Source of the DNA: Clostridia bacterium
GTDB lineage: Bacteria; Bacillota; Clostridia; Christensenellales; Aristaeellaceae
DNA: 62,518 nucleotides
NCBI GenBank assembly: GCA_017410455.1
Contig: JAFQQT010000057.1
Location: forward strand, 1-62,518
Reading direction: 5' to 3'
Below, piece by piece: positions 2,476-55,995 of the stretch (position 1 is its first letter; every line of letters starts with the position of its first letter). The notes under the pieces are model-generated. The model had not been told where the DNA came from. It worked only from the letters and a program-made list of their open reading frames with translations, and made no database searches. The position numbers were made by a program, and so were the translations under genes.

Positions 2476-4328
2476 GCCTGCACCCCCTCTTCGGCCATCC
2501 CCGCCGCAGGGGCGGTGCTGGCTACGCTCGGCGATTGCAAGCAATCGCTCTCGCTAGTCGGGGGCTGTGCCCCCTCCCTCCGGAATTGGGATTCGTGAAT
2601 CTCGCGGTACACATCACAGCTTGCCATCAGCTCGTCGTGGGTGCCGCAGCCTGCCAGCTCGCCGTCGTCCATGACGAGGATCTGGTCGGCGTGGCGGATG
2701 GAGGAGGTGCGCTGGGAGACGATGAAGGTGGTGGTGCCTGCGGGCAGTTGCCGCAGGGCGCTGCGCAGGGCTGCGTCGGTGGCGTAGTCCAGGGCGGAGG
2801 CGCTGTCGTCCAGGATGAGGATCTCCGGTTCGCTCACCAGTGCGCGGGCGATGGTCAGGCGCTGCTTTTGTCCGCCGGAGAGGTTGCGGCCGCCCTGCTC
2901 CACGGGTTCATCCAGCCCGCCGGGCTTCTGGCGGACGAACTCCGCCGCCTGGGCGGTCTCCAGGCAGGCCCAGAGGAAGTCGTCGGTCACCTGGTCAGCG
3001 GTTTTTTCGCCTGCCGCCAGGCCGTAAAGCAGATTGCTGCGGATGGTGCCCTTGAACAGCTGCGCCTTCTGCGGCACGATGGCGATACGGTCGCGCAGCT
3101 CCTCATGGGGCCAGTCGGTGATGGGGCGGCCCATGAGGGACACGCGGCCCTTGGTGGCGTCATAGAAGCGGGGGATCAGGTTGACCACGGTGGATTTGCC
3201 GCTGCCGGTGCCGCCGATGACGCCGATTGTTGATCCGCGCAGGGCGCAGAAGGAGACGCCGGTGATGCTCTCGTCGCCCGCGCCCTTGTAGGTCAGGGAC
3301 ACATGGTCAAAGCGCACGGCCTCGGTTGCGGAGTCGGGCAGCGCGGCCTTCTCCGGGTACACCATGGAGGTTTCGGTGTCCAGCACTGCGGCGCAGCGGC
3401 CCAGGCTGGTGTACGCCTTCGTCAGCAGCACGATCAGGTTGGCCAGCTTCACCAGTTCGACGAGGATCTGGCTCATGTAGTTCAGCAGCGCCACCACGTC
3501 GCCGGAGGCCAGGTCGCCCAGGCGCACCTTGTCGCCGCCGGTGTACAGCAGGGCGATGATGCCCAGGTTGATCACCGCATAGGTCAGCGGATTGGTCAGC
3601 GCGGCGATGCGGCCCACCTTCAGCTGCGCGGCGGTCAGTTCGCCGTTGGCGGCGGCGAAGCGCTCCGCCTCGGCCTCCTCGCGGCCAAAGGCACGCACCA
3701 CGCGCACGCCGGTCAGATTCTCGCGGGTCGCGCCGGTGACGGCGTCCAGCCGCTGCTGCACCTTCCTGTACAGGGGGCTGGTCACCTTCATCACGCCAAA
3801 GACGATCACCGACAGCACGGGGATCGTCACCACGAACACCCACGCCGCCTCCATATCAATGGTGAAGGCGGCGATCATCGCGCCGATGACGATGAAGGGG
3901 CTGCGCAGGAACAGGCGCAGGAACATGTTCACGCCATTCTGCACCTGGTTCACGTCCGCCGTCATGCGGGTGATGAGGGTCGATGCGCCGATGCTGTCCA
4001 GCTCCGTGTGGGAGAGGGTCTGGATATGGCCCATCAGGTGATGGCGAAGCTGGGTGGAGGTGCCGATGGCGGCGCGGGCGGCGAAGTACTGCGCGGTAAA
4101 CGAGCAGGCAAGGCCAATCAGCGCCATCAGCACCAGCAGGCCGCACTGGCCCAGGATCCAGGGCACACGGGCGGCCTCGTCCGCAAATTCGCCGCAGATG
4201 CCCGTGTTGATGATGCGCGCCACGATCAGCGGCACCCGCAGGTCGAAGAAGGCCTCCAGCATCTTGAACAGCGGCGCCAGGATGCTCTCGGCCCGGTACT
4301 TTTTCAGGTAGGAAAACAGGTACTTCAA
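2472..4328 (-). CDS. ABC exporter, fused permease/ATPase subunit (degenerate-site partner)
   Basis: A 618-residue half-transporter with an N-terminal transmembrane exporter domain and a C-terminal ATPase (Walker A GGTGSGKST, signature LSGGQKQ). The Walker B region reads LILDDSASALD, so the catalytic Glu is Asp, and the H-loop reads IVSQRTSSI with Gln in place of His. These are the usual marks of the degenerate site in heterodimeric exporters and fit pairing with the downstream gene. The last ~35 residues after HESQFRR are odd: they are encoded by a palindromic repeat (2491-2574) and contain SDCLQSPSVAST, which also occurs in the unrelated protein at 54898-55995. The start has AGGAGG-like GGAGGACATCCCC spacing. 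Confidence 0.9.
   Translation of the reverse strand: MKYLFSYLKKYRAESILAPLFKMLEAFFDLRVPLIVARIINTGICGEFADEAARVPWILGQCGLLVLMALIGLACSFTAQYFAARAAIGTSTQLRHHLMGHIQTLSHTELDSIGASTLITRMTADVNQVQNGVNMFLRLFLRSPFIVIGAMIAAFTIDMEAAWVFVVTIPVLSVIVFGVMKVTSPLYRKVQQRLDAVTGATRENLTGVRVVRAFGREEAEAERFAAANGELTAAQLKVGRIAALTNPLTYAVINLGIIALLYTGGDKVRLGDLASGDVVALLNYMSQILVELVKLANLIVLLTKAYTSLGRCAAVLDTETSMVYPEKAALPDSATEAVRFDHVSLTYKGAGDESITGVSFCALRGSTIGVIGGTGSGKSTVVNLIPRFYDATKGRVSLMGRPITDWPHEELRDRIAIVPQKAQLFKGTIRSNLLYGLAAGEKTADQVTDDFLWACLETAQAAEFVRQKPGGLDEPVEQGGRNLSGGQKQRLTIARALVSEPEILILDDSASALDYATDAALRSALRQLPAGTTTFIVSQRTSSIRHADQILVMDDGELAGCGTHDELMASCDVYREIHESQFRREGAQPPTSESDCLQSPSVASTAPAAGMAEEGVQA
2491..2574 (-). repeat. Palindromic element forming the C-terminal tail of an ABC exporter
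   Basis: This stretch contains the perfect palindrome GCGATTGCAAGCAATCGC (2531-2548), a flanking hairpin GGGGGC-TGT-GCCCCC (2559-2573) and a third weak hairpin near 2500-2515. The same arrangement is found at 55491-55672. It is translated in frame as PTSESDCLQSPSVASTAP at the end of the exporter gene on the minus strand. Confidence 0.8.
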
Positions 4329-7873: not shown

Positions 7874-7976
7874 CATATGCGAACAATAAAAATTTTGCAA
7901 TTTCTTTGGGAAAGGCAGGACAAAAAAAAAAAAAACGAATATAGAAGAAAATCAGAAATTGTCAGGAGGTATCCCC

Positions 7977-9020
7977 ATGGCGCTCATCACCTGTCCCGAA
8001 TGCGGTCAGCAGATTTCTGACCGCGCAAAGGTCTGCCCTCACTGCGGCTTTGACCTGAACGCCCCCAAGTGCGCCGACTGCGGCGCGTACCTGCCCGAGG
8101 GCGCGGCGGCCTGCCCGTCCTGCGGCTGCCCGGTGGAGGCTGCTGCGCCCCAGCCCGCTCCCACGCCTGCCCCCCGGGAAGCAGCCAAGCCCGGCGTGGC
8201 CATCCTGGAGCTGCCCGGCCCGCACCCGAAGATGAAGACCGCCGAGGAATGGGTGGTGGCGGATGACGCAGGCAAGAACGTGAAGACGAAGATCAAATGG
8301 GGCGATGACCGCACGGTGGAGCTGCCCCTGACGACCTCCGAGCCCGTGTGGGTGATGCCGGAGGATCAGATGGAAGACAAGCGGAGAAAGGCTTTCTGGG
8401 CAAAGCTCTGGCCTGTCTATCGGATCCTTGCAGCGATTTTCGGCATTCTTGCAGTGGTCGGCGGTATTGGTGCACTGGCTGTGTTTTTGATTGATCTTCC
8501 GGGAACAGGTCTGATTGCCAGCATTGGATTTGCAGTCGGCCTGCTGATGATACTGATTCCGCTTTTTGTGAATTGTATACCGAAAGTATATCCGGATCCG
8601 GCAGCACGGCCGGTGTGGATTGACAAGAGCTACGACCTCATCACGCGCTACTACCCCAAGATGCTTCTGCCCGCTTCTGGTGACAAGAAGAGGTGGCAAA
8701 AGATTGTGCAGATATGTCTGCCTGTGGTTGTTCTGCTTGTCTTTGCTCTTGCATTGATCAATTTCGACTATGGTGGTGGTTGGTATCGAACGGATATATG
8801 GGACGAAACTGTGGCAGGCTGGATCGCAATGATCTGTGTAATGGTAGCATTCCTCTGTTTCGCGTTTGTAGTCATGCCGTTCTTCGTCATCGGACACCCC
8901 GTTGCACTTTTCTGCCACCGCCGCTCCAAGCACCTGCGCCTCATCATCACCCCCGGCAAGCGCTATAACCTGGTCTGGCGCAACCGCCACACCTTCTCCG
9001 TTTCCGAGTACGACGCATAA
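7977..9020 (+). CDS. Double zinc-ribbon membrane protein, copy 1
   Basis: A 347-residue protein. The N-terminus has two zinc-ribbon pairs (C6-C9/C20-C23 and C32-C35/C46-C49: CPECG, CPHCG, CADCG, CPSCG), then a Pro/Ala linker, a soluble segment and four hydrophobic helices (about residues 140-160, 175-200, 240-260 and 280-305). Function unknown; such proteins are common membrane proteins in Clostridia. The start is set by GGAGGTATCCCC before ATG. It is the first of a tandem pair: RBS, ribbons and linker start are nearly identical to the next gene, then the proteins diverge apart from a short C-terminal TPGK-Y-W match. Bases about 8390-8890 are noticeably more AT-rich than both ends, suggesting a mosaic origin. 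Confidence 0.75.
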   Translation: MALITCPECGQQISDRAKVCPHCGFDLNAPKCADCGAYLPEGAAACPSCGCPVEAAAPQPAPTPAPREAAKPGVAILELPGPHPKMKTAEEWVVADDAGKNVKTKIKWGDDRTVELPLTTSEPVWVMPEDQMEDKRRKAFWAKLWPVYRILAAIFGILAVVGGIGALAVFLIDLPGTGLIASIGFAVGLLMILIPLFVNCIPKVYPDPAARPVWIDKSYDLITRYYPKMLLPASGDKKRWQKIVQICLPVVVLLVFALALINFDYGGGWYRTDIWDETVAGWIAMICVMVAFLCFAFVVMPFFVIGHPVALFCHRRSKHLRLIITPGKRYNLVWRNRHTFSVSEYDA

Positions 9021-9038
9021 CACAAAGGAGGTATCCCC

Positions 9039-9680
9039 ATGGCGCTCATCACCTGTCCCGAATGCGGAAAGCAGATTTCCGACCGTGCAAAGGCCTGTCC
9101 CCACTGCGGTTTTGACCTGAATGCCCCCAAGTGCCCCGATTGCGGCACGTACCTGCCCGAGGGCGCGGCGGCCTGCCCGTCCTGCGGCTGCCCGGTGGAG
9201 GCTGCTGCGCCCGCTGCTGCCCCTGCCCCCGCTGTGCCAGCTGCCCCCGCGCCTGGCGGCGGAACGGTCACCATGACCTTCCCTGCGCCCCACGCTTTCT
9301 GGAGGGTTGTGCCCCAGCTGGTCATCATGGACGAGGGCGGCCACACCACCTACGGCGTGGTGGAGTGGAACAAGACGGTTACCATCGACTGCCGCCGCCC
9401 TGAAACGCTGAGCATCCGCCGCAATGATGAGGCGGAGATGCGCCGCAAGAATAAATTCAACGGCACTGGCCTGCTGGTTATGGCGGCTGCGCTGTGCCTG
9501 CTGCCTTTCGCGGTGGAGGATCTGTGGGCTGTATGGGCCTTCGCTGTGATCCTGGCTTTCTTCGGTGTGATGGTTCTGATCGAGAAGCCCACACCCATTG
9601 CGACCTTCTCCGTCACCCCTGGCAAGGCCTACGAGTTCTACTGGAACGACAAGAAGCTCGAAGCCCACCAGATCAACTGA
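9039..9680 (+). CDS. Double zinc-ribbon membrane protein, copy 2
   Basis: A 213-residue protein with the same N-terminal double zinc ribbon (CPECG, CPHCG, CPDCG, CPSCG) and Ala/Pro linker as the gene before it, a soluble segment of about 65 residues, two hydrophobic helices (about residues 148-185) and a C-terminal segment with TPGKAYEFYW that resembles the end of copy 1. It begins 18 bases after copy 1 stops, with the same GGAGGTATCCCC ribosome site, so the two are likely co-transcribed. Membrane localisation is predicted; function unknown. A palindromic terminator follows. Confidence 0.75.
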   Translation: MALITCPECGKQISDRAKACPHCGFDLNAPKCPDCGTYLPEGAAACPSCGCPVEAAAPAAAPAPAVPAAPAPGGGTVTMTFPAPHAFWRVVPQLVIMDEGGHTTYGVVEWNKTVTIDCRRPETLSIRRNDEAEMRRKNKFNGTGLLVMAAALCLLPFAVEDLWAVWAFAVILAFFGVMVLIEKPTPIATFSVTPGKAYEFYWNDKKLEAHQIN

Positions 9681-54897: not shown

Positions 54898-55995
54898 TCA
54901 TTCCTCCCAGAGCGTGTCCAGCAGCGCGGCGATGTTCTCCTCCGAGTACTCGATCTCGGCGGAGTACATGCGGGCCAGGTCGATGCAGTCCTCCGGCGTG
55001 CAGCCCGGCTTTGCGGCGCACAGGGCCATCAGCATGCGCGTGGACAGCACGCAGAAGGCGACCCGGCCGGGGACGTCCTCGTCCTCCATCGCGCCGGGGA
55101 GATGCCGGTAGAGCAGGTACGCGCAGAAGTTCGCCAGGGGCACATCCAGCGCGGGGGACAGCGCATGCTGCGCTCCGGCGAGGCTGTCCAGCGCCGCATC
55201 CCACGCGGGATCGAGCCGCTCCAGCTCGCGGTAGATCTGCGGCCAGTTCATTTCCGGAATGGGCAGCCCGCCCAGCATCAGCACCTCGTCCAGCCGCTCC
55301 TGCAGGGGCGTGTCATGCTCCTGCATAAGGGTGATCAGCGTGTCGCGGATGGCCAGCAGGGCCTCATCCTCCTCGTCCAGCGCGTCATCCGCGCCGTCGT
55401 CCTCCAGGGTGAGGAGCTCCATGGGCGTTTCGCGGGTGAGGATGAGCCGCGCGGCCTCCTCGCAGCACAGGCCCAGACCGCCCTCTGTTCTCGGCCATCC
55501 CTCGGCACAGGGCCGAGTGCTGGCTACGCTCGGCGATTGCAAGCAATCGCTGTCGCTAGTCGGGCTTTGCCCGACCTTTGTTCTCGGCCATCCCTCGGCA
55601 CAGGGCCGAGTGCTGGCTACGCTCGGCGATTGCAAGCAATCGCTGTCGCTAGTCGGGCTATGCCCGACCTTCGACTGTCCCCAGAAATTCCGGAATCGCG
55701 GGTGATCAGCGCAGATCTGGCACAGCGCGCTCTCGCCCAGCTGGGTGATCAGGTCGCACAGGCCGCTCGGATTCAGCATCGCGCAGCGTCCATCCGCGCA
55801 GAGGCGGAAAACGGGGTATTCTCCGCTGTCGTCGATGGCGGCGTTTAGCCGCTCGCCGAATGCGCCGGGGACACGGCGGTACTGCTCCCGCGTGTCCGGG
55901 TCGATGTCGATCTCCCAGCCGATGCAGCAGCTGTGGCGGCACTTGTCCGCGATGCAGCGGAATTCAGGGTAGTAATCGGGAGCAATCAGCTTCAT
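54898..55995 (-). CDS. FliB-like (lysine-N-methylase type) Fe-S cluster protein with a repeat insertion
   Basis: A 365-residue protein of the FliB/YkgJ-like group. The N-terminus has the Cys cluster FRCIADKCRHSCCIGWEIDID, with further cysteines in LCADGRCAML, GLCDL and LCQICADHPRFRN. FliB methylates flagellin lysines in Salmonella; clostridial relatives are mostly uncharacterised and no flagellar gene lies near. Residues about 108-170 are two tandem 31-residue repeats (GWPRTKVGQSPTSDSD type) inserted just before the conserved GLGLCCEEAARLIL; the flanks read as normal family sequence. The start overlaps the GH2 stop (ATGA) with GGAGG upstream. It follows GH2 in the operon. Confidence 0.85.
   Translation of the reverse strand: MKLIAPDYYPEFRCIADKCRHSCCIGWEIDIDPDTREQYRRVPGAFGERLNAAIDDSGEYPVFRLCADGRCAMLNPSGLCDLITQLGESALCQICADHPRFRNFWGQSKVGHSPTSDSDCLQSPSVASTRPCAEGWPRTKVGQSPTSDSDCLQSPSVASTRPCAEGWPRTEGGLGLCCEEAARLILTRETPMELLTLEDDGADDALDEEDEALLAIRDTLITLMQEHDTPLQERLDEVLMLGGLPIPEMNWPQIYRELERLDPAWDAALDSLAGAQHALSPALDVPLANFCAYLLYRHLPGAMEDEDVPGRVAFCVLSTRMLMALCAAKPGCTPEDCIDLARMYSAEIEYSEENIAALLDTLWEE
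55491..55672 (-). repeat. Tandem 2 x 93-bp palindromic element inside a coding gene
   Basis: Two copies with exact 93-base period (31 codons) lie within the FliB-like gene. Each has CTCGGC...GCCGAG, GCGATTGCAAGCAATCGC (55533-55550 and 55626-55643) and GTCGGGC...GCCCGAC hairpins. The element matches 2491-2574, on the same strand and in the same reading frame. Confidence 0.85.

Follow-up and report, generated by a model that had tools for sequence, protein, structure and literature searches.

A dispersed three-hairpin palindromic element found in frame in protein genes of Clostridia

The DNA analysed here (the window) is a stretch of 62,518 nt that forms contig C45 in the 3.30-Mb draft assembly of a Clostridia bacterium (93 contigs, 92% complete). 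On its minus strand lies a gene for a FliB-type flagellin lysine-N-methylase that is interrupted, without loss of frame, by two copies of a 93-bp palindromic unit. The question raised by this locus is whether the unit is native to the protein or is a mobile element that has entered a coding region and, if the latter, where else it resides and how it might have spread. The original prediction had likened the unit to the protein-coding palindromic elements of Rickettsia, and the results described below support its reading as a palindromic repeat, dispersed in a clostridial genome, that enters protein genes without breaking the frame.

A tandem insert in a FliB gene

The gene (54898..55995, minus strand; start set at the Met of MKLIAPDYYP) was assigned to flagellin lysine-N-methylase FliB by NCBIfam NF038110, with 182.4 bits against a cut-off of 85, and by alignment with FliB proteins; a Pfam search of its product gave no match at 1e-3. 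A tandem repeat with a period of 93 and 97% match was detected at 55478-55671, its units lying head to tail, and the in-frame array of two units spans 55486..55671 (minus strand), corresponding to 62 inserted codons. The minus-strand open reading frame runs from FRNFWGQS into the unit KVGHSPTSDSDCLQSPSVASTRPCAEGWPRT, then the unit KVGQSPTSDSDCLQSPSVASTRPCAEGWPRT, and then the conserved segment EGGLGLCCEEAARLIL. Each unit amounts to 31 codons, and the pair ends directly before this segment. One reading frame is open through the array on the coding strand and two are open on the opposite strand. These observations confirm the earlier description of two 31-codon units ahead of a conserved segment of a FliB-like protein, with a single stop-free frame on the coding strand.

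Three hairpins had also been predicted for each unit. A single FliB unit folds at -45.7 kcal/mol, compared with a mean of -32.5 for shuffled sequences (z -3.85; none of 200 shuffles was equally stable), and the three hairpins were located in both copies, with no strand assigned to them. In the copy closer to the gene's 5′ end (55584..55670, minus strand; 108.1 bits and E 6.3e-20 with our covariance model R1), H1 (GTCGGGC/GCCCGAC) occupies 55652..55668, H2 (GCGATTGC/GCAATCGC) 55626..55643, and H3 (outer GGCCA, inner CTCGG) 55586..55618. In the second copy (55491..55577, minus strand; 107.9 bits, E 7.3e-20) the same hairpins lie at 55559-55575, 55533-55550 and 55493-55525, respectively.

Comparison with other FliB proteins reveals that the insert is exceptional. 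In 13 of 15 aligned proteins, the source protein being among the 15, DHPRFRNF-like residues run directly into DRTEIGLGLCCEEA-like residues without an insert. The one other filled protein, which belongs to another species (genome G016), has one unit, placed at the codon where the source gene has its double unit. In the FliB tree, the source gene clusters with an empty gene from G010 (support 100/98) and the filled G016 gene is placed elsewhere, and two changes are therefore required. These changes might be a double insertion, a precise loss or a transfer, among which the tree gives no preference.

A third copy of the element is present in the window at 2491..2575 (minus strand), in sense and directly upstream of a gene start at about 2475, between two same-strand genes that appear by eye to be ABC transporter-like. 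The hairpin-forming sequence GCGATTGCAAGCAATCGC occurs in both FliB copies and once elsewhere in the window, at 2531-2548; when up to three mismatches are allowed, there are six matches in the window (three places, both strands) versus 0.18 expected. Separately, the window holds two 187-nt stretches that are 94% alike (7964-8150 and 9026-9212), near the starts of neighbouring genes whose products resemble zinc-ribbon proteins by eye.

Structure and distribution of the element

The complete element is approximately 89 bp long and is built from three hairpins. In an alignment of 33 copies, 25 base pairs are formed and 99.2% of 791 cells are paired, with changes on both sides at 19 of the 25 pairs; shuffling the columns gives 7.9 such pairs, and sliding the pairing gives no more than eight. 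Pairing is maintained across all 225 copies that we collected from the genus, at 96.8% of cells or more in every positional class, the lowest value being that of in-frame sense copies. A non-standard co-change was also observed: columns 21 and 54 are T-T in 178 of the 225 copies and G-A in 22. The ends of the element match each other over 6 nt at best (TCGGGC/TCGGCC), and since they agree in TCGGSC alone its terminal inverted repeats are weak. A search of seven element loci against Rfam at E up to 10 returned tRNAs and chance matches, none of them on the element.

The element is a multi-copy repeat in the source genome, where R1 has 32 matches at E 0.001. Neither of the two outcomes named as contrary to the original prediction, native residues in all orthologues or a unit missing from the rest of the genome, was observed. 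At this threshold it is present in 16 of 18 genomes of the genus, including G016 (147 matches), G002 (98) and G011 (26), and R1 has no match in G007 or G014. Among 120 sampled genomes of the family, 16 carry the element, three of these belonging to the genus. Two of 297 genomes in a sample of the order were positive at 1e-6, one being the source genome itself, in a screen that scored 15 candidates per genome and may therefore have missed copies. The genomes named here are MAGs, all genomes are drafts, and contig ends coincide with some of the copies. Most of the named records that contain the motif are MAGs of Clostridia, and many of them come from the guts of goat, sheep and deer. Eight of 74 pattern stretches were named outside Clostridia and were rejected as chance matches, six of them scoring 28.6 bits or less and two having no model score.

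No match was found when plasmid and phage records were searched with one copy of the element. Seven copies lie on six predicted viral contigs, two pairs of which have the same sequence around the element. Two of these copies immediately precede, in sense, a Sak4-like and a RusA-like gene, so the element reaches phage DNA. On two predicted viral contigs (L245:952-1038 and L249:5615-5701) a longer direct repeat, GACATCCGYGATTTGAA, borders the copy on both sides in imperfect form.

Copies in protein genes, leaders and RNA genes

In-frame copies are found in conserved genes whose orthologues lack them. The host genes encode FliB, UvrC, QueA, a PurL-type FGAM synthase, UDP-galactopyranose mutase, a response regulator, an ABC-F protein, a B12-radical SAM protein with three copies, a beta-lactamase-fold hydrolase and others. 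In 13 of the 14 in-frame sense arrays, judged by eye, the frame used is the one that encodes SPTSDSDCLQSPSVAS-like peptides or worn forms of these. An automated comparison flagged 45 sites with an empty orthologue; because copies internal to tandems, a self-match and a repeat family with the element in its own hairpin are among them, we used only the named pairs. Relative to their empty orthologues, five filled genes, representing four sites, have net inserts of 183, 90, 90, 87 and 93 bp, all divisible by three.

Two of these genes offer filled and empty states across many genomes. Judged from query coverage, 3 of the 16 genomes that gave a match have a filled QueA, and a residue-by-residue reading of ten genomes gave three filled and seven empty genes. 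Transfer of a filled allele was considered for the shared QueA sites and rejected, as identity beside the insert is not in excess. Among 18 genomes, UvrC is full in two (three units in G011 and one in the source genome), retains in-frame remnants in three and is empty in 13. The remnants in G002, G009 and G010 exceed the empty length by 20, 10 and 3 residues. The UvrC series is best read as one old insertion wearing away in frame, although the 3-residue case proves little by itself.

Some individual hosts may be mentioned. The B12-binding radical SAM gene at L218:5622-7586 contains three separate in-frame copies, one antisense and two sense, the first of which directly follows a CPFQCAFCL motif. 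In the source genome, an ABC-F gene resembling those for Lsa-type ribosome protection proteins (L011:259-2052) carries the element in frame.

The positions of the 225 copies, which form 191 arrays, were classed with a home-made codon model that was built from genes with ribosome-binding sites and had no outside control. It placed 60 arrays in leaders in sense and 13 in antisense, 14 in frame in sense and 7 in frame in antisense; both flanks were coding otherwise for one array, one flank was coding otherwise for 13, no coding was in reach for 68 and a flank was too short for 15. When similar flanks were collapsed and classes assigned by majority, 124 independent sites remained. Leader copies are in sense at 48 of these and in antisense at 9 (p 1.5e-7). 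Seventeen further sites are in frame, one has both flanks coding otherwise, 12 have one coding flank and 35 have none; broken genes might be concealed among the 12 of the one-flank class.

The spacing of the sense leader copies is narrow, since at 44 of 51 sites the element ends 14-25 nt before the start codon, which is just upstream of the ribosome-binding site. This location makes the element a candidate translation regulator at many genes. Together with the covarying fold and the in-frame deletion of copies, the sense leaders near start codons go beyond what was originally predicted.

The element also resides within structured RNAs. RNase P RNA contains it in G004 and G006 (L044, L045), and cobalamin riboswitches contain it at three loci (L035, which is in the source genome, L190 and L350); at two others (L193, L204) it crosses the 5′ edge of the riboswitch match. 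Three T-box leaders (L134, L330, L349) contain it as well, in matches of 51.5-59.7 bits (E 1.6e-10 to 2e-8) that fall under the gathering score of 93. All ten copies in RNase P RNAs, cobalamin riboswitches and T-boxes are in sense, and they collapse to few independent sites. Spacers between 5S rRNA and tRNA genes provide three more copies, in antisense, at like sites in three genomes.

These locations raise the possibility that the element is a cis-acting regulatory or mRNA-processing RNA, whose sense copies in 5′ leaders protect the transcript or control translation and whose coding copies are by-catch. The 48 to 9 leader bias, the tight distances to the start codon, the covariation with its co-change of columns 21 and 54, and the sense copies in two phage leaders are all in keeping with such a role. 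The in-frame copies, tandem arrays and patchy presence, however, suit a selfish element, and a preference for RAGG targets could by itself produce an identical leader bias. We therefore regard a primary regulatory function as rather unlikely, though it is the alternative that fares best.

Movement and relationship to known elements

We favour the interpretation that the element is a non-autonomous mobile palindrome of the MITE class, that its insertions in frame and in RNA genes are tolerated, that the FliB unit has doubled and that copies erode. We assign this interpretation a probability of roughly 85%. It occurs in one genus of gut Clostridia and in scattered relatives. A single strand of the approximately 89-bp element folds into three hairpins, a fold kept during its spread, and an enzyme acting in trans would copy it to new places. 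The targets are perhaps purine-rich RAGG sites, which resemble Shine-Dalgarno sequences, with about 9 bp being duplicated. Insertions into genes would survive if the frame is kept, with some 30 extra residues presumably translated and tolerated. Those into structured RNAs may survive because the element, as we propose, forms its own fold within a helix at the periphery. In FliB, one inserted unit would later have been doubled by a tandem duplication of exactly 31 codons, and copies at other sites erode through in-frame deletions.

Evidence for target duplication is statistical. The left and right flanks resemble each other beyond chance over 9 bp with RAGG as the last bases, the identity being 0.374 versus 0.337 when shuffled (p 0.0005, 79 independent sites). 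Nine repeat lengths were tested, and 5, 7, 8 and 10 bp also gave p < 0.03. An exact, non-tandem 9-bp repeat, GAAAGGAGG, flanks the element at two sites (L018 and L251), and RAGG is not clear at the empty FliB site. A search for a mobilising enzyme, in which Y1 transposase was the sole family sought, found none. A self-comparison of 26 loci from five genomes revealed short mosaic repeats alone, with no longer repeat block that could accommodate a transposase as part of a parent insertion sequence.

Certain hairpin features of the element recall REP sequences and REPINs, which consist of hairpins with a GTAG foot and reach many copies per genome, and GTAG next to a bulged hairpin is a REP-like feature. 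The clostridial element shares the GTAG-footed hairpins and high copy number: GTAG precedes H3, and on the opposite strand H1 is preceded by CTAG. It might thus be a REPIN- or BIME-like element moved by a RAYT-type Y1 transposase. Consistent with this notion, the six of 18 genus genomes with Y1 hold 12-98 copies versus a median of 4 in the 12 without (Mann-Whitney p 0.043). However, Y1 has no match in the source genome (92% complete; 32 copies) and is absent from G016 (147 copies) and G011 (26 copies). RAYT genes usually have their REPs on either side, whereas no copy was found near seven Y1 loci of relatives (19,884 bases, E 1). The clostridial element further differs in its central third hairpin and its coding insertions. 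The statistical flank duplication also counts against Y1, as a duplication of this kind is generally not expected of Y1 transposition. Mobilization by a RAYT is accordingly improbable in our estimation.

A SINE-like element, in which the folded transcript is the mobile form, inserts in sense into loops or Shine-Dalgarno stretches and is then copied into DNA, seems slightly less probable again. If true, this model would explain several features together: the RNA-type fold with its co-varying contact, the preference for sense copies, the weakness of the terminal repeats and the short duplication of the flanks. A RAGG-targeting DNA element explains the sense bias equally well, and the antisense orientation of copies within genes and of those in the 5S-tRNA spacer argues for DNA as the mobile form.

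An assembly artefact is very improbable: the genomes are drafts and part of the copies lie at contig ends, but the same junctions recur across species (three for QueA, two each for UvrC and FliB) with substitutions of their own. Least credible is a native functional linker of FliB that evolved within the lineage, for which the identical codon filled in two species might be cited, as it is refuted by dispersed copies of the unit in unrelated genes, leaders and RNA genes and sits poorly with the many FliB orthologues that lack it.

The mobile palindrome that we favour has its closest counterpart in the Rickettsia palindromic elements (RPE), to which the original prediction had likened it. According to reviews, RPE are repeats of 105-150 bp whose frame is continuous with that of numerous host genes (Ogata et al. 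2000, 2002; PMC2229807, PMC10969869), and they are also present in tmRNA and RNase P RNA genes (PMC2229807). As an analogy this likeness is supported, and it extends to RNase P RNA: both elements are short, palindromic and dispersed, and both occur between genes, in frame in conserved genes and in an RNase P RNA gene. In this sense the element works like an RPE. The two differ in host and length, the clostridial element being about 89 bp, and in form, as RPE are described as long stem-loops with 12-bp terminal inverted repeats (PMC2229807) whereas the clostridial element has three separate hairpins. The latter also occurs in sense leaders, riboswitches and T-boxes, and the review passages on RPE contain no mention of riboswitch or T-box copies.

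Other small repeats share some of these properties. Enterobacterial RU-1/ERIC, RU-2 and RU-3 and other bacterial MITEs are described as having open frames fused in frame to genes (PMC2759123, PMC2229807), and they are likewise non-autonomous. ERIC, RUP and Correia elements are listed in a review's table with terminal inverted repeats and target duplications, whereas the ends of the clostridial element match over at most 6 nt and its duplication is statistical. The titles and abstracts of the open-licence PMC papers listed in our searches yielded no description of the element or of such riboswitch insertions.

The pattern described here is the one known from Rickettsia, yet its hosts are gut Clostridia whose genomes measure 2.1-3.3 Mb, and the loci affected include uvrC, queA, purL and RNase P RNA. 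High-frequency in-frame palindromic elements are best known from Rickettsia, which are obligate parasites with reduced genomes, and the tolerance of junk peptides there could be blamed on weak selection. Because sister species differ in whether an orthologue is filled, eroding or empty, they provide a test bed for the effects on an enzyme and the loss of 30-residue inserts.

Repeats of other kinds accompany some copies. At L161-L163 (G156) and L151-L155 (G079) the surroundings of the copies share recurring mosaics of short repeats, in blocks that reach some hundred bases. A second repeat, for which the scanned loci gave no convincing Rfam match, is of a hairpin type, GTTTTCCGC...GCGGAAAAC followed by ATTCCTTACG. 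It is present at L066, L132, L303, L304, L305, L327, L328, L329, L333 and L339, and its loop contains the element in many cases but is free of it elsewhere.
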